In this document: positions 573 to 10,362 of the stretch, piece by piece | Layout: each line of letters starts with the position of its first letter | Position numbering within the stretch: position 1 is the first letter of the stretch | Assembly: GCA_017632095.1 (NCBI GenBank) | Contig: JAGBSA010000237.1 | Coordinates: 1-10,445 of the forward strand | DNA from: Bacteroidales bacterium | GTDB lineage: Bacteria; Bacteroidota; Bacteroidia; Bacteroidales; P3 | DNA: 10,445 nucleotides | Reading direction: 5' to 3' | Notes under the pieces: generated by a model | What the model saw: only the letters and a program-made list of their open reading frames with translations | The model's database searches: none | What the model was told of the DNA's origin: nothing | Made by a program: the position numbers and the translations under genes

Positions 573-1847
573 ATGTTACAACTTAATTTTATCAGAGAGA
601 AGAGAGATTATGTTATAGAGCGATTGGGAGTGAAGCATTTCAAAGATGCCGAACAAGTAATTGACGAAATAATTGCATCAGACAACAAAAGAAGAAACAC
701 ACAAACAGAACTTGATAAAATAAAATCAGAATCTAATTCTTTGGCTAAGCAAATCGGTATAATGTACAAGCAAGGTGAAGCTGCTAAAGCTGAGGAATTG
801 AAAAAGCAAACTGCTGTTTGCAAAGAGCGAGAAAAGGAATTGTCAGAGCAACTTGCAGAATGCGAAGCTCATGTTCGTGAGTTGTTATTGACAGTGCCTA
901 ATTTGCCAAACGAAAACGTACCTTTGGGAAAATCTTCTGAAGATAATGTTGTTGAGGTTCAAAAAGGAGAAATTCCACAACTTCAAGAAGGAGCAAAACC
1001 TCACTGGGATATTTGTGCAGAATATGATATTGTCGATTTCGAACTTGGAAACAAGATTACAGGAGCAGGATTCCCGGTTTACAAAAGAAAAGGTGCCAAA
1101 TTGCAAAGAGCATTAATCAATTTCTTTTTAGATGAGGCTGAAGCGAATGGCTTTACTGAAGTGCAACCTCCTTTGATGGTAAATGAGAATTCAGCAATGG
1201 CTACAGGACAACTTCCGGACAAAGAAGGACAAATGTATTCTATTCCGTTAGATGGCTATTATATGATTCCTACTGCGGAGGTTCCGGTAACCAATATCTT
1301 TAGAGACACTATCCAAAAGGAGAAAGATTTGCCGCTTCAATACTGTGCGTATTCTCAATGCTTCCGTCGTGAGGCTGGCTCTTACGGTAAAGATGTCAGA
1401 GGCTTGAATCGTTTGCACCAATTCGACAAAGTGGAAATCGTTTGCATAGATACGCCTGAGCATTCTTACGAACAACTTGAAAAAATGAAGAATCACGTTG
1501 CAGGATTGCTGGAAAAGTTGGAATTACCTTACAGAATATTGCGTTTATGTGGCGGAGACATGAGCTTTACTTCTGCAATAACATACGATTTTGAAGTTTG
1601 GTCGGCTGCACAACAACGTTGGTTGGAGGTAAGTAGCGTTTCAAACTTCGAAACTTATCAATCGAATCGAATGAAGTTGAGATACAAAAACTCCGAAGGA
1701 AAGACTGTTTTGGCTCATACTTTGAATGGTAGTGCTTTGGCTTTACCTCGAATTGTTGCAGCTTTGTTGGAAAATCACCAAACACCAACAGGAGTGAATA
1801 TTCCAAAGGCTTTGCAAAAGTACACAGGATTTGATAAAATCGACTAA
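573..1847 (+). CDS. serS: Seryl-tRNA synthetase
   Basis: This cytoplasmic class II aminoacyl-tRNA synthetase charges tRNA-Ser (and tRNA-Sec where present) with serine, using ATP and releasing AMP and PPi. At 424 residues it has the usual bacterial length. Residues 1 to about 110 form the charged N-terminal helical arm, a long antiparallel coiled coil (K/E-rich 36-105) that contacts the tRNA variable arm. The catalytic domain follows. TAE at 234-236 is the conserved serine-binding signature. Motif 2 starts with FRREAGS at 264-270, and GLNRLHQFDKVE lies at 277-288. Motif 3 is NGSALALPRIVAALLE at 385-400, holding the ATP-binding arginine. All key motifs are intact. The start at 573 gives the canonical N-terminus (MLQLNFIRE), and the leader is A-rich without a Shine-Dalgarno sequence, as is usual in Bacteroidetes. 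A strong hairpin terminator follows about 30 nt after the stop. Confidence 0.98.
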   Translation: MLQLNFIREKRDYVIERLGVKHFKDAEQVIDEIIASDNKRRNTQTELDKIKSESNSLAKQIGIMYKQGEAAKAEELKKQTAVCKEREKELSEQLAECEAHVRELLLTVPNLPNENVPLGKSSEDNVVEVQKGEIPQLQEGAKPHWDICAEYDIVDFELGNKITGAGFPVYKRKGAKLQRALINFFLDEAEANGFTEVQPPLMVNENSAMATGQLPDKEGQMYSIPLDGYYMIPTAEVPVTNIFRDTIQKEKDLPLQYCAYSQCFRREAGSYGKDVRGLNRLHQFDKVEIVCIDTPEHSYEQLEKMKNHVAGLLEKLELPYRILRLCGGDMSFTSAITYDFEVWSAAQQRWLEVSSVSNFETYQSNRMKLRYKNSEGKTVLAHTLNGSALALPRIVAALLENHQTPTGVNIPKALQKYTGFDKID

Positions 1848-1877: not shown

Positions 1878-1917
1878 AAAAATAAGCGGAAAGATGATTT
1901 CCGCTTATTTTTTATTT
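1878..1917 (+). terminator. Intrinsic terminator of serS
   Basis: There is a perfect 15-bp stem, with arms at 1878-1892 and 1898-1912 (core AAGCGGAAA / TTTCCGCTT), a 5-nt loop GATGA, and a T-rich tail running to 1917. It begins about 30 nt after the serS stop codon and is a standard Rho-independent terminator for the DUF2148-serS transcript. Confidence 0.9.
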
Positions 1918-1930
1918 ACCCCAAATGAAA

Positions 1931-2014
1931 CTTCGTTTCAGAAAATTGTTTCTTCGTTTTGCTAAACCAAAACTTCGTTTTGGAAAATTAAAACGCCGTT
2001 TTAGTTTTCTTGTT
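1931..2014 (+). repeat. Array of four 21-nt units, copy 1
   Basis: The octamer CTTCGTTT begins at 1931, 1952 and 1973, and its variant CGCCGTTT at 1994, so the period is exactly 21 nt. The units are degenerate but related: the first contains TTTCAG, the second and third end in AAAA, and the last continues into TTTTAGTTTTCT. At several unit junctions the sequence is a short palindrome of the type AAAAC-nnC-GTTTT (1926-1940, 1967-1983, 1989-2003). A related four-unit array in the same order lies on the minus strand at 7213-7296, and a 22-nt stretch (1989-2010) is identical there. The array starts 83 nt after the serS stop, beyond its terminator. The function is unknown; candidates are a protein-binding array or a dispersed intergenic repeat family. 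Confidence 0.8.
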
Positions 2015-2237: not shown

Positions 2238-5200
2238 ATGGAAACACTAAACGAAAGATTGGGAGTTATTCCACAAGATAAATTGAATCAAAACGCTGAA
2301 TATATACATCAATATATTGGTTTGCGTTTAGCTGCGTTGGGGGTTGAGATGGAGACTGAAGGAATGAGTGAAGAGCAAATAAACTTCATGGAATGCTTGA
2401 AAGGTCTATTATCAAACTACAAAGAACGAGAAGTACTCTATGATAACAATCTCAGTCCCATGGATGCGAGAATCCAAAACTTCTTTGACAGCTATTTTGC
2501 TACTGTTAGAGGAGTTGAGGATATTAAAGTGCCAATGAGAACCTTTACTTTGGACTCTTATGGTATCGCAAGAGAATTGTCTTTGCCTAAAGGAAAAGAT
2601 GAATATGTTTCTGAATATGTAACCTCTTATAGAGTTAAACAAGGAGTTCTTCATAATCCTAAAAACGATAGAAGAACTACAAAAGGCGTATTCCATGTTG
2701 CAGAAGGTGGTTTGCCTATTCCAGATGATAAGAAAGCAGTTCCTATTCATACTGCAAAGTATATCTTCCACAGAGCTTTCGCTGAAACCGGTGAAATAAT
2801 GGAACTACCATTTACTTCGCAATCTGAAAAGAATGTACGCTTGTTTGTGTCATTGCTATTAAAGCCTGTGATATGCCCGGAAGTTAAGGGAGTTACAGAA
2901 GAAAAGAATATGGAAATTCGTTTCTTCGCTCCGGGTTCATTGGTTTGCAACCTTGACTTTGTTGAAAGTATATTTGGAAATGGCGGAAGCCCATATAACA
3001 TTGCTAATGACTCAGCTTTAGATGTTGAACATTGGACAGGACATACAGGTTGTATAATATTGGCACCACAATTGACCAAATTAACTAAAAAAGAATGTGG
3101 ATTGCCACACATAAGCGAAGCAACAGAGCGTCAAAAGCGTGATGGAATGTGTTGGGAGAAGGAAGACGAACTATATAACGACGGTCAATCGTTCAAACTT
3201 TGCGTAAGAACACAAGATGGTGTGATTGCAACAGTCATAGCTGACAATTACTTCGGCTATTCCAAGAAAGAAGTAAAGACAATGATTGGTTATTCTGCCA
3301 ATATCTATGGGTCTGTTGAAGAAGAACACGCAGGAGGAGCATTAGTTTTTCCAGGATATAACCAAGGCGATAATTACTTTGCGAATCCTATGAAGGTGAA
3401 AAACACTTTCGCAGATGTGAAAGCGAATTGTCAAGATTTCATTGACTTCAATGAAGAAGGCTATGGAGTGGATAAAAACTTTTCTAATATATTCTACCTT
3501 CCGGAAAATACAACATTTAATGTGCCAACACAGGAAATAAAATGGAAGAATGCAACAGGAGAACATTACTTAAAGCTTTTACCACAACGTATTTACATAT
3601 TGCCAAATGGTAGTAAGTTTAGAATGGAAGGCTATTCCGGAGCGTTGAATTATCGTCTTGTTGAGATAGTTGGAGAAGGTCTTTTCTGCCATAAGCCATG
3701 CACTGTGAGTGGTGGAGGAAAGAGTGAGATATCTAAGTCTATTGCAGATGCGATTTTAGGAGGTCCGTTCTTTATTAAAGACTTTGAAAAAGACTTTGCA
3801 AAGGTTGAAGAGATTATTAACTACGATTATTCTAAGCGTTACATATCTTTGAATAACGATCCGATACCTTATAGCCGCAGTTTCTTGAATTCAAGACGCT
3901 CAATGGGCTCTGTAATCAAACTATTGACACCTTCAAGCGAATATACCTCAGAATACAATGAGTGGTTGAGTGGTTTGTCTCAATATGTTAAAGGTATAGC
4001 CTTCATTATAAAAAGATTCTACAAAGAAGAGTGGGGAGGGGAATGGAAAAAGTTTTTTGGTGTTGATATTCTAAACGGCACACCAGGCAATGAATTGAAG
4101 TTTGGCGACAAAAAGATTTTTGCACGCTACCTAAGAGTCGGCTTTGCAGAAGATGACACATGGCGAACTTTCAAATTGCGTCAAGACTTTGTGCATTCAG
4201 ACAAAGTACAGATGGAAGACGATATAAGCGTTTCAGCAGTTATTCCAACAAGACTGTTAAGCAACTTAGGAAAAGCAGCAGACAAAGAGAGCGTTAAAAT
4301 AGTTGAGAACTGCGAATACCGATTCTTCCAACGCCCTGACGATGCTGTTATACGTGGATATGATAAGAAGGCAGAGGCTGATTTGTCTTCACCAAACACA
4401 TTTATATCAAACTACGAGCCGCTAACAGTTGACGATGCTCAAGAGATAGTTGAAGATGTTATCAACTTTGACCAATTTACTGCCCCAATGAGAAACCTTA
4501 TTCAAGAGGTTGCTGACAAAAAAGACAGCAAATACGTTGTTTCTTCAGCACATCCTCGTTTGGTTAACGGTAAACCGTCAAAGAATGTTCGTTATTTACA
4601 AACTCGTAATGACTTGATTAACCCAATTGAACGCTATATTGCAGAGGTGGGAATGAGACTTGCACGCAAGTTAAAGCCAACAGACCCACTTTATATCCCG
4701 GTTAATTCAGTTCTACCAGGCAGACGTAACAATAGAAAAGAAGAAGGAATACGTCCATTGGCGGTTTACAATCCTATTCACTACCAAGAATTGCCGGAAT
4801 TGTTTATGGACTTCATTTGTTCATTGACAGGAAAGAGCCCATCTACAACAGGAGCAGGTTCAGAAGGCGCTTTAACAAAGGGACCGTTCAATGCGCTTTG
4901 TGCAGTAACCGATTTGAACAACGCCTTAGTTTCATTCATATTGACAGGTTACGATGGCTTTACTACACCTGCAGGATACATAGGAAGCAAATACAGAATT
5001 GACCACGACTTAAGCCTTTTGACTCCGGAATTATGGGCAAGACTTACACCAGAAGAAAAAGATCCTAAATACATGATTGCAAACGGTTATTTGGAAAAGC
5101 TAAATGACTTCACATATGGAGGAAAGGAAATAAAGGCTTCTGTATTGGGTTATAGAATTACTGAAAAGTTCGTAGTAGATTTCTATGGTAGAGTGTTCGA

Positions 5201-5696
5201 AAACCCTAATGTTGTCTTCACAGACGAAATGCTTAAACCAGAACTTCAAAGTATGGACGAATATGTTGATGGTGTAAACAACATTGTAGAAAACCAAAAA
5301 CGTGTTGCACAAATGTACTTTAACGATGGCAGTGTTGAAGCAGCTGTTGAGCCATTGAAAGCTTTGTTACACATAATGGTACATGGAGAATACAAAGGAA
5401 TGACTTTGTTAAGCAAAGAATTCAGAGAACTATTCACCAGAGAAAATATGATGGAAAGCGATTGGTACAAAGAACGTTTGAGAAACAAACACGTAAACGA
5501 TATTGCATTGTGGCAAGGTCACCAAAAATATTTGTTAGAGTTCTTGAAAAAGGCAGGAAACCTTGATGAAGAAAAACAAGAGGAAATAACAGAAAAATTA
5601 CATCTTGTTTCAGAAAGATTAGCTTTCGTACAAAGCCAAGAATACTATGATATGTTGATTGGAACCATAGGAAAAGACAATCTGTATTTGGGATAA
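2238..5696 (+). CDS. Probable PPi-type phosphoenolpyruvate carboxykinase
   Basis: This is a large soluble protein of 1152 residues without signal peptide or membrane helices. I read it as the PPi-dependent PEP carboxykinase (EC 4.1.1.38), which interconverts oxaloacetate + PPi and PEP + Pi + CO2. That family, described from Entamoeba and Propionibacterium, has very long chains of about this size, against 500-620 residues for ATP/GTP enzymes. The motif order is PEPCK-like: an arginine-rich substrate region (YRVKQ 131-135, NDRRTTKG 143-150, HVAEGGLPIPDDKKAVP 153-169), a Tyr-Gly/His segment (YGSVEEEHAGG 357-367), then a P-loop-like SGGGKSEISKS (491-501) and an acidic stretch KDFEKDF (514-520) in the place of kinase-1 and kinase-2. 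A Gly-rich conserved-looking block lies at 870-887. The ATG at 2238 is chosen because the promoter -7 box lies just upstream. The gene stands alone, with its own promoter and terminator. The name rests on recalled family features, not on an alignment. Confidence 0.68.
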   Translation: METLNERLGVIPQDKLNQNAEYIHQYIGLRLAALGVEMETEGMSEEQINFMECLKGLLSNYKEREVLYDNNLSPMDARIQNFFDSYFATVRGVEDIKVPMRTFTLDSYGIARELSLPKGKDEYVSEYVTSYRVKQGVLHNPKNDRRTTKGVFHVAEGGLPIPDDKKAVPIHTAKYIFHRAFAETGEIMELPFTSQSEKNVRLFVSLLLKPVICPEVKGVTEEKNMEIRFFAPGSLVCNLDFVESIFGNGGSPYNIANDSALDVEHWTGHTGCIILAPQLTKLTKKECGLPHISEATERQKRDGMCWEKEDELYNDGQSFKLCVRTQDGVIATVIADNYFGYSKKEVKTMIGYSANIYGSVEEEHAGGALVFPGYNQGDNYFANPMKVKNTFADVKANCQDFIDFNEEGYGVDKNFSNIFYLPENTTFNVPTQEIKWKNATGEHYLKLLPQRIYILPNGSKFRMEGYSGALNYRLVEIVGEGLFCHKPCTVSGGGKSEISKSIADAILGGPFFIKDFEKDFAKVEEIINYDYSKRYISLNNDPIPYSRSFLNSRRSMGSVIKLLTPSSEYTSEYNEWLSGLSQYVKGIAFIIKRFYKEEWGGEWKKFFGVDILNGTPGNELKFGDKKIFARYLRVGFAEDDTWRTFKLRQDFVHSDKVQMEDDISVSAVIPTRLLSNLGKAADKESVKIVENCEYRFFQRPDDAVIRGYDKKAEADLSSPNTFISNYEPLTVDDAQEIVEDVINFDQFTAPMRNLIQEVADKKDSKYVVSSAHPRLVNGKPSKNVRYLQTRNDLINPIERYIAEVGMRLARKLKPTDPLYIPVNSVLPGRRNNRKEEGIRPLAVYNPIHYQELPELFMDFICSLTGKSPSTTGAGSEGALTKGPFNALCAVTDLNNALVSFILTGYDGFTTPAGYIGSKYRIDHDLSLLTPELWARLTPEEKDPKYMIANGYLEKLNDFTYGGKEIKASVLGYRITEKFVVDFYGRVFENPNVVFTDEMLKPELQSMDEYVDGVNNIVENQKRVAQMYFNDGSVEAAVEPLKALLHIMVHGEYKGMTLLSKEFRELFTRENMMESDWYKERLRNKHVNDIALWQGHQKYLLEFLKKAGNLDEEKQEEITEKLHLVSERLAFVQSQEYYDMLIGTIGKDNLYLG

Positions 5697-5769: not shown

Positions 5770-5818
5770 AAACGGACGTTTGAACTTGTGAATTCAAGTC
5801 GAACGTCCGTTTTTCTTT
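5770..5818. terminator. Bidirectional terminator between convergent genes
   Basis: AAACGGACGTT at 5770-5780 pairs with AACGTCCGTTT at 5802-5812. Additional pairing (GAACTTG with CAAGTC, one bulge) extends the stem towards a small loop near 5790. A T-rich tail (5810-5818) serves the plus strand, and the A-rich left flank (5761-5770) gives a T-rich tail on the minus strand. It lies 74 nt after the PEPCK-like gene and abuts the stop codon of the WD40 lipoprotein gene, so it can end both transcripts. Confidence 0.88.
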
Positions 5819-6938
5819 ATTGCATTCCCCATATTTTCAGAGTTTGGTCTCCTGCAGTCGAGATTATGTATCTTCCGTTTGGACTCCAATTTGCTGAAGT
5901 AAACCTCATGCCGACTGTACCTAAGGTTTTGACAACCGAATATGTGTTTGCGTCCCATATTTTAATGAATCTGCTGTCTGCAAAACTGAGAAAATAATCC
6001 CCATTCGGGCTATAACTAACGCCGGATACACGATAGCTGTCATGCTCATCAAGAATCTGAAGACATTGTCCTGTGTTTGCGTCCCATATTCTTATGATTC
6101 CGTCATATCCTCCTGAGATTACCTTGCTTCCATCTTTACTCCAGTTGCAACTTTGTTCACCCCAATTGCATCCGACAAGGGTATGAAGACATTGTCCGGT
6201 GTTCGCATCCCATATTCTTAGACTTCCGTCATTCGAGGCAGAGACAAGACGATTTCCATCCGGACTCCAAAATACCTGACAAACGTTTGATGTGTGTCCG
6301 ATAAGAATTTTGATGCATTGATAATTGTTTGCGTTCCATATTCTGATGTTATGTTCGAGCGAAGATGAGGCTATGTAATTTCCATCGGGACTCCAATCTG
6401 CCCAAAGCACTCTTTTCTCAGTTCCTTCCAAAACTCTCTCGCAGGAAGCATCTTTTGTGGTCCATATTCTCAAAGTGCTGTCGACTGCAACCGAGACTAA
6501 TCTGTCTCCTTTGTGATTAAACTTTGCCATAGTAACGCAATTGGTATGTCCGTTATAGGTTTGAACAATCGAACCATTGTTTGCATCCCATGAATGGAAG
6601 ACTTCTTCTGCCGCAACGCTGATTATACGACTTCCATCGGGGCTGTAATCGGCATGAAGCATCCATTGACTCGGGTGATTAAAGGTTTGAATACATGTAA
6701 ATGCAGTATAATCCAAACTATCGGTGATAGGGTCGTTACCGTCCTCGTTATCGCCAATTCCACCTGTAGTATCGGTTTCTGTTTCGGTCGTTTCGCTTTC
6801 CGTACTTCCGCCACCGCCGCCGCCGATTCCTGGTTGATGGTTTTGGTTGTTGTTTAGTTCTTCTTCAGTCGGCTCTTCGCATGAGGCAAACAGCATCATA
6901 CCAACAGCAAACAAACATAGTAAATTTCTAATCTTCAT
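5817..6938 (-). CDS. Lipoprotein with a seven-bladed WD40 propeller
   Basis: This is a 373-residue lipoprotein. Residues 1-19 form a signal peptide ending in the lipobox LFASC, with Cys20 as the lipidated residue, followed by acidic EEPTEEE, which in Bacteroidetes can act as an export signal to the cell surface. Residues 28-76 are a low-complexity linker (Asn/Gln, a Gly run, then Thr/Glu/Asp). Residues 82-373 contain seven WD40 repeats of about 42 residues, each with an SPDG-like turn and a strand ending in W (W117, W159, W201, W243, W285, W328, W370). Seven repeats make exactly one closed beta-propeller and no catalytic domain is present, so a binding or scaffold role at the envelope is likely; the partner is unknown. 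The ATG at 6938 is preferred over an in-frame GTG at 6974 because it gives a normal signal peptide. A -7 promoter box lies about 60 nt upstream. The gene is monocistronic and convergent with the PEPCK-like gene. Confidence 0.9.
   Translation of the reverse strand: MKIRNLLCLFAVGMMLFASCEEPTEEELNNNQNHQPGIGGGGGGSTESETTETETDTTGGIGDNEDGNDPITDSLDYTAFTCIQTFNHPSQWMLHADYSPDGSRIISVAAEEVFHSWDANNGSIVQTYNGHTNCVTMAKFNHKGDRLVSVAVDSTLRIWTTKDASCERVLEGTEKRVLWADWSPDGNYIASSSLEHNIRIWNANNYQCIKILIGHTSNVCQVFWSPDGNRLVSASNDGSLRIWDANTGQCLHTLVGCNWGEQSCNWSKDGSKVISGGYDGIIRIWDANTGQCLQILDEHDSYRVSGVSYSPNGDYFLSFADSRFIKIWDANTYSVVKTLGTVGMRFTSANWSPNGRYIISTAGDQTLKIWGMQ
6059..6220 (-). repeat. Near-identical 36-nt direct repeats inside the WD40 gene
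   Basis: The segments 6059-6094 and 6185-6220 differ at only 3 of 36 positions and lie 126 nt apart, which is exactly one 42-residue WD40 repeat. They encode the RIWDANTGQCL ends of blades 4 and 5. The third-position differences are few compared with the other blades, which suggests a recent duplication or gene conversion between neighbouring blades. Confidence 0.8.
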
Positions 6939-7155: not shown

Positions 7156-7190
7156 TTGATTGAATCCCTGTTTCGAAACACTGAAATCAA
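7156..7190. repeat. Palindrome TGTTTCGAAACA within an imperfect inverted repeat
   Basis: TGTTTCGAAACA (7169-7180) is a perfect 12-bp palindrome. It is flanked by TTGATT (7156-7161) and AATCAA (7185-7190), which pair in the same symmetry with unequal spacers. No T-tract follows the outer arms on either strand, so it does not look like an intrinsic terminator. It could be an operator for the lipoprotein gene. Confidence 0.45.
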
Positions 7191-7212
7191 GCTTTAACAG
7201 AGTAAAATAAAG

Positions 7213-7296
7213 AATCAGAAAACTAAAACGGCGTTTTATAATCCTAAAACGAAGAAAGAAAAAATTAAAACGAAGATTCAGTTTGCTGAAATAAAG
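7213..7296 (-). repeat. Array of four 21-nt units, copy 2
   Basis: Read on the minus strand, units start at 7296 (CTTTATTTCAG), 7275 (CTTCGTTTTAA), 7254 (CTTCGTTTTAG) and 7233 (CGCCGTTTTAG), each exactly 21 nt apart. A fifth degenerate unit may start at 7212 (CTTTATTTT). The order of unit types matches the array at 1931-2014: a first unit with TTTCAG, two CTTCGTTTT units, and a last CGCCGTTTTAG unit. The segment 7217-7238 is a 22-nt exact inverted match to 1989-2010. The array starts 24 nt after the MATE-M23 stop codon, in the sense orientation of that gene. A small hairpin TTCAG-TTTG-CTGAA (7277-7290) lies within the first unit and is followed on the minus strand by a T-rich run, so it may also help to terminate transcription. 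Confidence 0.8.
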
Positions 7297-7320
7297 AGAT
7301 GTAAAACTCTAAGCAAAATC

Positions 7321-10300
7321 CTATTTAATTACAACATACTTTTCCGAAGACCGATTAGCTTTTGAGTCGGATAATTTAATCTCTAAATCATTCTTACCTT
7401 TGTTTAGCTTCTTTGCATCTATAATCAGTCGTCCGCTTTTGCCGTCATATTCTGCCAAAACCCAAGCTCCATTCAAGTAAGCGTTGTAAGAGTGTATTCC
7501 CGACAAGTTATCGCTTATCTTTACTTGAATTGTCTTTTGTTGAGCTTTGATTTGTTTGCCAGAAGTGAAATTATGTGGTTTGCATTTAGGAGCTATAGTG
7601 TCTATTGCAACGCTATAAGTCCCAAATTTATTGATAGAGCAAACTATATTCTTACCTTCGATTTTTCCACCCTCACTTGACTGCCTTCCTTTGCCATCTA
7701 TTGAAACTATAACCGCCTTATCCTTATATGTATTGAGGTTGTGATTGTAGCGAATCTTCAAAGTAAAAGCCTTATGTATTGGAGTGCTTCTGCTATGTAA
7801 AGTATGAATATTCGAATACTTACCTTTGCTTGAACTATATGACATATCCAAATCCTCATACAAACTTCCGGCTTTTGTAATCAAAGAACTTGAATCCGGA
7901 AAAGTCAAACTGTTGGCTTTATTCCAAGCAATATAGTAGGAAGAGGAGCTTTGCTTTTGAGTGTTTAGCTTATTAACCAAACCGATATTTGGATTAGAAA
8001 CACTACCTGTTAGATAGAATTTGAAATTAGTTTGATTGCCCCTCTCATCAGTAAGAGATATTACAATCTCCTTCGTTTCTCCCTGTGCCACTTCTATGAT
8101 TCCTTTGTTCTTATAGCTGACACAATTTATCGAACAATTATCGTACTTCTTTGTCCAAAGCATTCTTCTTCCCGAACTTTGCAAATAGCCATAGTCAATT
8201 ATCGCATTAGCATATCTTGAATCAGTAAAGAAAAAACCGGAATTGTTATATCGGAAAATCATTTCTTGATTCACAATCACCTTTGTGTCAAACACACCAT
8301 TCTTTTGAGTAGAGCCGTTAGAGCGATCATAAGCCTCTAAAGCAAGATAAAACTTTCCGTTGGCAATTATTGTATCCCCATCTTTGAAATCAGGACTCTT
8401 CATAAGGTCTATAAACTTTGAACTGCTACCTTCCTCAATTGAAGAATAGTCATCAACAGCCAATAGACGCAAAGCATAAAGCGTCGGAGCAAGTTCGTCT
8501 TTTAATTTCAAACCATTCAAAACAGGATTCAACGTCTTTTGACTTGCAGTGTTTCTTATCTCATAGTGCAAGTGTGGACCGCCCGAAGAACCTGTATTAC
8601 CGCTCAAAGCAATAGTATCACCTTTCTTTAATTTCAATCGACCTTTAGGAACATTGAGGTCAAAGCTGTAACAATGATTCTTATATTGGTAATCTTTAAC
8701 GTATTTTCCAATTTTGCCATAGTATTCGTTTAAGTGCATATACACAGTTGTGTATCCGTTTGTATGACTTATGTAAAGATTCTTACCGCCTCCATAAACC
8801 TGTATCTTGATTCTTGAAACCTCTCCGTCAAAAGGACAAATCACATATTGATTTTCCTTGCCTTGGGTTCTTAAATCAATACCTGAGTGGAAGTGATTGC
8901 TGCGTAATTCACCGAAATGCCCGGAACTGCCCAATGGAATAGTCAATGGTGGTAAGAAATTATCACAAGAGTTTTGAGCAAAAGCCTTTTGTGGATTTAT
9001 TACGTTTGTACACAATATTAAAAACACGATACAAGCTAAACTTTTAGGCTTTGCCCAATGTGATTTCTTGTAATAGAAAAGAAAAATCACCATACCGATA
9101 AACCAAGACAAAGGAGCGCCAAGCCAAATTCCCGTTGTGTCAAATTCAAATGACAAAACATAAGATAGAGGCAGCCTTATAAGCAACAGCGACACCAAAC
9201 TGATAATCATAGGTACGAAAGTGTAACCCACAGCCCTGAAAAAAGAAGTGTAAATGTTCATAACAGCAAATAAAAACCAAAATATCCCTGCAATCTTCAA
9301 GTAATCCACACCAATATTTACAACGCTTACAGTGTCAGAAAACAACCCCATAAGTCCATTTGCAAAAAAGAAGAAGACAGAAAAAGTAATCACAGAAATA
9401 TATAACATTAAACGCATAGAGAAATAAAGACCTTTTTTCACGCGAGCAATATTCCCCGCACCATAATTTTGTCCTGCAAAACTAGTTAGAGCAGAAGCAA
9501 AGTTCAAAACAAACAACATAGCAACAGACTCGATTCTGCTTGCAGCCGAATAAGCAGCCAAAGCATCGGTTCCAAATTTTGCCACAAGCCCAAGAATAAG
9601 TATTTGCGACAAAGCAACAATCGATTGTTGTATCCCTGTTGGTAAACCAATCCTTACAATCTCTTTGAACACTGAAACATCAAAATACTTTGACAATTTT
9701 TTGATTCGCATATATTCATTGGCACTTTGCAAACGTATAAACAACAAAGCAAATGCCAAAAATTGACTTATAACACTCGCCCAAGCTGTTGAAACGAGCG
9801 AAAGTTTGAGATGAGCTACGAAAACATACGATAGAACAGCGTTTACAATGTTTGAGCCAACTAAGTAATAGAGTTGAGTTTTGCTATCGCCCAATCCTCT
9901 CAATATACTCACAGCAGAATTGAACAAAAAGGCGAAAAACATTCCTATCATATAGACACGCATATACCTAACTGCCGAATCCATAACCTCTTTCTCCAAT
10001 CCCAAATTAGAAAATAAAGAAGAAGCAAACAAAATCCCACACCCACAAATCACAACGCCAATTATGATAAAGAAAATGTAGAATGTACTTATCACAGTCG
10101 GGATTCTGTCAAACTTTTTCCCACCAAAGAAATGAGAAACTACCACACTGCCGCCCGAACCTATGCCAATAACCAAGGAAACTAAAAAGAAAACAATCGG
10201 ATACACCGAACCGACAGCCGCCAAAGCCACATCACCCAAATAGCACCCAACAATAGCACTATTGACAAGCATATATAGTTGTTGGAAAAGGTTACCTAAG

Positions 10301-10362
10301 ATAATGGGAAGCCCAAACAGAAAAATACTTCTGCCAATACCGCCTTTGGTAAAGTCTTTCAT
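7321..10362 (-). CDS. MATE-family exporter fused to an M23 metallopeptidase
   Basis: This is one open frame of 1013 residues. Residues 1-430 are a complete MATE-type exporter (cation-coupled drug or metabolite antiport) with twelve hydrophobic helices in two six-helix halves (about 11-211 and 231-430), the full family length. Residues 431-440 (YKKSHWAKPK) are a basic cytoplasmic tail. A hydrophobic segment (441-455) ending in KAFA-Q (459-463) follows and looks like a signal peptide with an AxA cleavage site. Residues 480-600 form an M23/LytM zinc endopeptidase that cuts peptidoglycan cross-links: HSGID (His492, Asp496), YMHL (His543) and GPHLHYE (His597, His599), so all ligands are present. 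Residues 620-1013 are beta-rich Ig-like domains, the last one with DNLSGIHSY (951-959). Twelve helices put the C-terminus in the cytoplasm, and the thirteenth places the peptidase in the periplasm. Cleavage after Ala462 could release it. The ATG at 10362 lies 15 nt after the preceding gene, with AAGGTGG upstream. Confidence 0.88.
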   Translation of the reverse strand: MKDFTKGGIGRSIFLFGLPIILGNLFQQLYMLVNSAIVGCYLGDVALAAVGSVYPIVFFLVSLVIGIGSGGSVVVSHFFGGKKFDRIPTVISTFYIFFIIIGVVICGCGILFASSLFSNLGLEKEVMDSAVRYMRVYMIGMFFAFLFNSAVSILRGLGDSKTQLYYLVGSNIVNAVLSYVFVAHLKLSLVSTAWASVISQFLAFALLFIRLQSANEYMRIKKLSKYFDVSVFKEIVRIGLPTGIQQSIVALSQILILGLVAKFGTDALAAYSAASRIESVAMLFVLNFASALTSFAGQNYGAGNIARVKKGLYFSMRLMLYISVITFSVFFFFANGLMGLFSDTVSVVNIGVDYLKIAGIFWFLFAVMNIYTSFFRAVGYTFVPMIISLVSLLLIRLPLSYVLSFEFDTTGIWLGAPLSWFIGMVIFLFYYKKSHWAKPKSLACIVFLILCTNVINPQKAFAQNSCDNFLPPLTIPLGSSGHFGELRSNHFHSGIDLRTQGKENQYVICPFDGEVSRIKIQVYGGGKNLYISHTNGYTTVYMHLNEYYGKIGKYVKDYQYKNHCYSFDLNVPKGRLKLKKGDTIALSGNTGSSGGPHLHYEIRNTASQKTLNPVLNGLKLKDELAPTLYALRLLAVDDYSSIEEGSSSKFIDLMKSPDFKDGDTIIANGKFYLALEAYDRSNGSTQKNGVFDTKVIVNQEMIFRYNNSGFFFTDSRYANAIIDYGYLQSSGRRMLWTKKYDNCSINCVSYKNKGIIEVAQGETKEIVISLTDERGNQTNFKFYLTGSVSNPNIGLVNKLNTQKQSSSSYYIAWNKANSLTFPDSSSLITKAGSLYEDLDMSYSSSKGKYSNIHTLHSRSTPIHKAFTLKIRYNHNLNTYKDKAVIVSIDGKGRQSSEGGKIEGKNIVCSINKFGTYSVAIDTIAPKCKPHNFTSGKQIKAQQKTIQVKISDNLSGIHSYNAYLNGAWVLAEYDGKSGRLIIDAKKLNKGKNDLEIKLSDSKANRSSEKYVVIK
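8977..9069 (-). other. Internal signal-peptide-like junction between MATE and M23 parts
   Basis: This encodes residues 432-462 of the fusion protein: the basic KKSHWAKPK, a hydrophobic stretch (441-455), then NPQKAFA. The basic end resembles the usual C-terminal tail of a stand-alone MATE protein, and the rest resembles the signal peptide of a stand-alone secreted M23 peptidase. There is no stop codon here. The nearest in-frame ATG is Met424 (9093), inside helix 12, and a GTG lies at Val446 (9027). Separate internal initiation of the peptidase from either codon is possible but not shown. Confidence 0.6.

Follow-up and report, generated by a model that had tools for sequence, protein, structure and literature searches.

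Short repeats dispersed between bacterial genes are known in several forms. REP/BIME elements, which are associated with RAYT transposases, are dispersed short palindromic intergenic units that occur in clusters, and Rickettsia palindromic elements are repeats found both between genes and in frame within genes. The closest described element is BrickBuilt of Porphyromonas gingivalis, a member of the Bacteroidales. BrickBuilt is a minisatellite/MITE of 23-nt imperfect units present at 19 places in one strain, with a leader and a tail, IS-like inverted-repeat ends, one word, and up to 22.8 units, and it was found in a single species by its authors' searches (PMC4596501). TAACTGA heptamer repeats are described as many intergenic direct-repeat sets with a fixed 7-nt word, some of them in a few Bacteroidetes; in Beggiatoaceae, they lie mostly just 5' of start codons in forward orientation (PMC4679880).

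The window analyzed here is the whole stretch of 10,445 nt of contig C260 from a 1.51-Mb Bacteroidales draft genome (G000; 73% complete, 288 contigs), and it contains two arrays of 21-nt units. An earlier note on this DNA held that the arrays fit no feature class that it recognized, but BrickBuilt is a near class. BrickBuilt and the present arrays are alike in occurring in Bacteroidales, in being intergenic, tandem, and dispersed, in having imperfect units of about two helical turns, and in giving rise to assembly breaks. They differ in that the present family forms 21- to 22-nt arrays without ends, occupies far more places, uses words that differ among lineages, and lies in some cases within genes. 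The 23-nt BrickBuilt word was not matched, the present unit having 21 to 22 nt and other words, and the lack of inverted ends and common flanks (below) argues against a MITE. Bidirectional promoter activity is a trait of the BrickBuilt/MITE class. Unlike the TAACTGA repeats, the arrays have 21-nt units and several words and are not tied to start codons or to one orientation. Unlike REP/BIME elements, they keep a strict 21-bp lattice, occupy divergent gaps, and occur in genomes without Y1_Tnp (PF01797, RAYT), which was detected in none of G000 (73% complete), G005, G008, and G014 and, among 21 genomes, only in G007, G009, and weakly G033. Unlike Rickettsia palindromic elements, the 21-nt-unit arrays lack defined ends, and only 3 of 86 lie inside open reading frames (ORFs). 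In the open-licence literature, at the level of titles and abstracts, we recognized no description of such arrays, BrickBuilt being the nearest.

Table 1. Positions of the two arrays and neighboring features in the 10,445-nt window
Feature	Position	Strand	Remarks
Seryl-tRNA synthetase gene (serS)	573..1847	+	Upstream of array 1
Perfect 15-nt inverted repeat with T run	1878..1912	+	Distinct from array 1, which comes after; from its sequence, probable terminator of serS
Array 1	1926..2010	+	Unit starts 1931, 1952, 1973, 1994, in 21-nt steps; gap 3' of serS
1152-aa ORF	2238..5696	+	Downstream of array 1
WD40-type protein gene	5817..6935	-	Downstream of array 2
Array 2	7170..7308	-	Unit starts 7296, 7275, 7254, 7233, 7212, 7191; gap 3' of MatE/M23 ORF
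1013-aa ORF with MatE and Peptidase_M23 domains	7321..10362	-	Upstream of array 2

The four plus-strand units described earlier, 21 nt apart, were confirmed (Table 1). The first three units of array 1 (1931, 1952, and 1973) read CTTCGTTT and the last (1994) reads CGCCGTTT; Tandem Repeats Finder placed the array at 1928-2002 with a period of 21 and a score of 66, the top of 8 rows for the window. For the minus-strand array, the four positions given in the earlier note stand, but the count does not. A cyclic profile model of 21 states, fitted to the source draft genome and also the basis for the bounds of both arrays, added in-phase units at 7212 and 7191 to make six, and the first unit (7296) is CTTTATTT, with 2 differences. 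The model scored array 1 at 52.4 nats and array 2 at 70.6 nats, and the same 61 contigs reversed without complementing gave no segment of at least 25 nats. Unit order, said to be common to both arrays, is shared between arrays to the degree that units drawn at random from the genome's pool also give. The 1152-aa ORF had no match in Pfam or NCBIfam. The ORF at 7321-10362 fuses a MATE transporter with a Peptidase_M23 domain in a single frame, and the open frames matching it span 1001 to 1032 aa in the same-genus genomes G002 to G005 and 555 to 579 aa in G008, G014, and G033.

Array 1 is not conserved behind serS: the next 300 nt in seven relatives (G001, G002, G004, G005, G008, G010, and G011, with G003 unusable since its contig ends 15 nt on) contain no 21-nt signal. 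The earlier note had taken such a loss of phase in orthologous spacers, or a lack of further copies, as a sign of local coincidence or a single duplication; the phase is indeed absent there, yet further copies are plentiful genome-wide. Pairs of the core CKYCGTTT exactly 21 nt apart number 75 in G000 (29 forward, 46 reverse) versus 0 for the reversed-pattern control, and a wider core, CTTBRTTT, gives 228 versus 5. These counts rule out local coincidence and, together with arrays in contigs not picked for them, bear out a dispersed intergenic repeat family, one of the possibilities raised at first. The examined 452.5 kb of G000 were mostly picked for arrays. Among 12 contigs (63.1 kb) without matches to the first pattern, the profile model found 8 arrays; of the 20 gaps there that measure 100 bp or more, 8 carry one. 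By extrapolation from these 12 unpicked contigs, the genome probably holds about 190 arrays, likely an underestimate, a number at which the partition protein site previously suggested is unlikely.

The lattice is tight. Across 41 contigs, 123 of the 124 same-strand CKYCGTTT pairs within 130 nt lie at 21, 22, 42, 43, 63, 64, or 85 nt. When eight core words were taken together, ignoring strand, in the G000 gaps of 61 contigs, the 238 nearest-neighbor distances of up to 70 nt comprised 145 of 21 nt, 28 of 22 nt, 22 of 42 or 43 nt, 12 of 7 or 14 nt, 1 of 20 nt, and none of 23 nt, whereas reversed words yielded 15 distances in total. A step of exactly 21 nt, as first claimed, is dominant in G000 but not exclusive, since 22- and 43-nt steps occur too.

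The five-base core of 256 full units is CTTCG in 110, CTTGA in 34, CTTTG in 26, CGAAG in 20, CGCCG in 10, CAAAG in 8, and TCAAG in 8, with others making up the rest. TTT follows the core directly in 214 of the 256. Next is a pyrimidine-purine step, then a tract of A or T, and the following core is mostly preceded by AAA or TTT. None of 500 column permutations of the G000 profile fits its own reverse complement as well as the profile itself does; the dyads, at positions 3 and 13.5, are separated by one turn of the helix. The observed symmetry was reached by 10 of 500 permutations in G005, 59 in G033, and 287 in G014. Being clear in G000, suggestive in G005, weak in G033, and absent in G014, the dyad appears to be a lineage trait. 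A general palindromic operator, suggested by G000 and by single arrays in G075 and G076, was rejected because only 19 of 165 arrays, from 13 further and own genome sets, have palindromic consensus units (p<0.05; about 8 expected) and G014 is not palindromic.

The period can be recovered independently of the word. For every lag, we tallied pairs of identical 7-mers in stretches without called ORFs; the ORF caller is crude, and some of these stretches (L460 and L423) contain coding DNA. Lag 21 came out on top in G000, G014, G033, and G005, and also in stretches chosen at round coordinates in G002 (4.6 per thousand, median 0.0), G004 (20.2), and G029 (14.4), leading in G002 and G004 without any CKYCG pairs. 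Lags 43 and 22 were on top in G008, and in G010 lag 14 was first and 21 second. In coding stretches the values were far lower, and the highest belonged to lag 21 or to another multiple of three. In further stretches, the top lags were 21 and 42 in G075 (a stretch with known matches), 22 and 44 in G076, and 23 and 46 in G054; Bacteroides finegoldii gave 21 and 22, the count at 21 being due mainly to a simple repeat of 7 nt and that at 22 to an array, and stretches of G038, G042, and G044 had no comparable lag on top. A per-gap test over 16 genomes (lags 12 to 60, 30 dinucleotide shuffles) found 156 of 583 gaps significant, the best lag being 21 in 92, 42 in 19, and 22 in 16. In 11 genomes whose examined stretches had not been picked for arrays (G002, G004, G008, G029, G010, G061, G076, G038, G042, G044, and G054), 36 of 172 gaps were significant, and 30 of these fell at lags 20 to 23 or 42 to 46, against about 7 if evenly spread, a lag window chosen after the data were seen and a set in which 2 of the 4 G008 stretches contain pattern matches and G061 and G076 had known arrays elsewhere. 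None of the five significant gaps of G010 (L487 to L490) matches the period; three of them have their best lag at 14.

The common trait is the two-turn spacing, and the words are lineage-specific and often different; the period, read at first as two helical turns, is what other genomes repeat with words of their own. G076 has palindromes, TAAGGTGCCACCTTA-like and GAGATGTACATCTC, in 22-nt steps, G075 has TCTATCAGTGATAGA at 21 nt, and the B. finegoldii array consists of AAACGCAAGTTGCGTTT-like units. In the "Candidatus Scybalousia" genome G075, positions 2963-3025 of locus L503 hold three TCTATCAGTGATAGA-like palindromes in 21-nt steps, which we take to resemble tet operator words.

The original word itself has a narrower range. 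Across 61 genomes, the CKYCG pair pattern (reversed controls ≤3) numbers 209 in G014, 75 in G000, 22 in G033, 19 in G005, 16 in G008, 7 in G029, and at most 3 in the others. The CTTBR pattern adds, relative to its control, G003 (67/4), G004 (74/8), G024 (27/3), G026 (35/5), G016 (39/16), and G035 (21/8), with 6 each in G001 and G002; it reaches at most 13 (G052, control 7) in 24 genomes from the order's other families and at most 6 in 197 other genomes of the phylum. Among named genomes, "Candidatus Scybalousia scybalohippi" has 134 pairs, two Bacteroidales MAGs have 87 and 209 (the latter, Hm464_bin38, with counts identical to those of G014), B. finegoldii has 4 of a related word, and ten others have just 0 to 3 each. 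The register of the profiles, unseeded columns included, agrees between G000 and G033 (reached by 0 of 1,000 permutations), G000 and G014 (6), and G014 and G033 (11); for pairs with G005, where 62, 280, and 808 of 1,000 permutations reached the observed value, agreement is unclear.

The arrays are real and more extensive than first noted, and a set of lineage-specific sites at two-turn spacing is the most economical reading. That they form a genome-wide family of site arrays on double-stranded DNA, for a sequence-specific, probably architectural, putative DNA-binding protein, has by our estimate from the sequences a little under an even chance. Each unit would be one site of such a protein, the spacing of 21 (sometimes 22) bp would place bound molecules on one face of the DNA, and the rows of sites would occupy the gaps between transcription units. 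Selection would keep the spacing while each lineage exchanges the recognized word for its own, as though the protein and its sites changed in step, and the chromosome may be affected in turn. The units do hold a constant helical phase, as expected of site arrays for an architectural protein. Among the earlier suggestions, a protein site is the best fit, with a binder that is putative, and the dyad of the G000 unit is in its favor. Several points count against site arrays: several core words coexist in one genome, which is unusual for one protein; arrays inside genes are odd for regulatory sites; the dyad is absent in G014 and weak in G033, and few consensus units are palindromic; neighboring units resemble each other in G033; the significant G010 gaps depart from the period; and 12 of the 238 nearest distances are 7 or 14 nt.

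That the arrays are instead a 3' RNA element, a terminator, or a small RNA seems a very slim prospect. Both window arrays come after a stop codon in sense and fold better there than shuffles (z of -2.70 and -3.37), and arrays in tandem gaps are closer to the upstream stop in 32 of 38 cases in G000, 8 of 14 in G014, 10 of 14 in G033, and 5 of 6 in G005, as would be expected if promoters take the other end. A position downstream of a gene in its sense orientation, which the earlier note had seen in both arrays, nevertheless fails as a rule. The 86 G000 arrays split into 38 in tandem, 15 in divergent, and 14 in convergent gaps, 16 at contig edges, and 3 within ORFs (gaps of at least 100 bp comprise 60 tandem, 33 divergent, and 23 convergent), and in tandem gaps the array runs in the same versus the opposite direction as the genes in ratios of 19:19 in G000, 10:4 in G014, 9:5 in G033, and 0:6 in G005 (p 0.03). 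Folding exceeds that of control gap pieces on both strands in G000 (mean z of -1.97/-1.65 versus -0.72) and G005 (-3.67/-4.40 versus -0.71) and is no better than controls in G014 and G033; the window has no Rfam match at gathering score, and serS has its own hairpin with a T run. Because there is no general orientation bias, divergent gaps are used, and the folding gain is missing in G014 and G033, the arrays likely act at the level of DNA rather than RNA, and the 3' RNA element proposed earlier is unsupported. Scarcely credible is a coding origin, in which 21 nt would be seven codons of translated heptad repeats. Stops per unit in the 256 units are low in frame 0 (0.027 versus 0.214 ± 0.020 with columns shuffled) and reverse frame 1 (0.078 versus 0.324 ± 0.024), a depletion overestimated by a flawed null, since column shuffling breaks A/T tracts and so creates TAA. 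The 22- and 43-nt steps are not whole codons and break the frame. An ORF scan of G000 (at least 120 aa) gave eight rows, the strongest genes being L078, L074, and L075; these have in-frame copies well inside, as Rickettsia palindromic elements do, but in three different frames and amounting to just 3 of the 86 arrays.

The main rival to site arrays is a selfish repeat of the REP or Rickettsia palindromic element type, in which units or short runs would be copied around the genome by an enzyme or by gene conversion, with gaps and a few protein loops tolerating them, and 21 nt would be a copying ruler; we regard it as possible, if on balance doubtful. Arrays occupy all gap types roughly in proportion, and a few genes too. 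The same loop of a glycosyltransferase carries 21-nt arrays in G000 (L074) and G002 (L460), each in its own words, and is shorter, plain, and without an array in G004 and G005. The G002 loop uses the words of that species' gaps: among 35 G002 gaps, L460 excluded, 11 contain TTCAGAAA (18 copies) and 8 contain GATTCAGA (10 copies). This loop may have received two insertions as a permissive site, or one old array may have been rewritten twice. The nucleotidyltransferase L075 exceeds its G003, G004, and G005 counterparts by seven residues, or one 21-nt unit, but the orthologues of G001 and G002 are as long as that of G000 and contain no array words, so the extra residues need not reflect an insertion. 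Sharing from array to array is mostly at the level of the unit: 7 of 84 arrays have 56 to 88 nt in common with another array, but the median longest exact match is 28 nt, versus 28.5 for random unit draws. Common ends and flanks are lacking, as inverted matches of at least 9 nt between an array's own 60-nt flanks occur in 2 of 84 arrays (mean of 3.0 under shuffled pairing) and no 9-mer is common to more than 4 of the 84 flanks on either side. A RAYT/REP origin is weakened by the missing Y1_Tnp in the array-bearing G000, G005, G008, and G014. Ordinary minisatellites, arising by replication slippage in each gap, would account for the tandem structure and for G033, where word sets are mixed and neighboring units are more alike than shuffled ones (6.07 versus 7.75 ± 0.31 differences; 0 of 300 shuffles as low). 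Neighbors are not more alike in G000 (8.41 of 21 versus 8.74 ± 0.22; 20 of 300 shuffles as low), G014 (5.52 versus 5.08 ± 0.23), or G005 (6.38 versus 5.27 ± 0.58), and slippage, which we judge highly unlikely, leaves unexplained one period across many gaps and genomes and one consensus per genome. Given that similar neighbors are absent in three of four genomes and that flanks and ends are not shared, sites drawn toward a genome-wide consensus fit better than local slippage or the spread of whole elements.

If the units are protein-binding sites, a candidate binder is HU-HIG (PF18291), an HU-like family of Bacteroidota. All 26 genomes searched match PF18291, because ordinary HU scores too, and so do 9 of 14 controls, Escherichia coli included. 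Best E-values are below 1e-18 in 15 genomes and between 2.4e-7 and 3.0e-11 in the other 11. A clear excess of CTTBR arrays is found in 11 of the 15 genomes with strong HU-HIG matches versus 0 of the 11 others (Fisher p 0.0002 by genome and 0.048 by genus), with cutoffs set post hoc and ancestry as a confounder. G006 and G017 have many matches (39 and 42) and no CTTBR arrays, and G007, without a strong match, has one 22-nt and one 44-nt gap in its loci. This weak co-occurrence makes HU-HIG a lead only. Several of the HU-HIG matches in G006 and G017 lie in adjacent clusters. A bolder, rather unlikely proposal is that Bacteroidales carry "phase arrays," perhaps two hundred per genome, whose conserved feature would be the two-turn spacing alone. 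Their lineage words would be replaced in step with a rapidly evolving architectural protein, perhaps HU-HIG-like, as happens with eukaryotic centromere satellites and their binders, and the pull would suffice to rewrite coding loops in the local words.

Should a protein maintain the spacing, a considerable fraction of the DNA between genes in a group of gut Bacteroidales would be organized chromosomal structure missed by annotation, and nucleoid organization in Bacteroidota would gain a sequence-defined target. If the arrays are selfish, they would represent a repeat copied unit by unit, with neither ends nor a known enzyme. On either reading, a period is conserved while the sequence is replaced, a pattern invisible to sequence-similarity searches.

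Similar repeats were seen beyond the genomes used for counting. Among at least 120 loci matching CGTTT x4, L244, L248, L259, and L265 belong by eye to the array family, L190 and L214 (Bacteroides) are similar, and the remainder of those listed are other tandem repeats. Gaps in Bacteroides (L190 at approximately 500-600, L214 at 3207-3489, L492, and L497) contain palindromic 21-nt units that are AAACGCAAGTTGCGTTT-like, with mirror-image AAACTTC/GAAGTTT runs on their flanks. Hymenobacter loci (L147, L154, L177, L204, and L210) hold near-perfect 21-nt tandem units of a different word, several of them near contig ends. G014 has a second intergenic repeat of GTCGGCAACCGAC and CCTAACGGAAG-type words beside or inside its 21-nt arrays (L391 at 11223-11700, also L383, L387, and L396). 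At the contig ends L382, L383, L387, L392, and L393 of the same genome, nearby arrays have by eye a longer stretch in common, as though they belonged to a more extended repeat at which the assembly broke.
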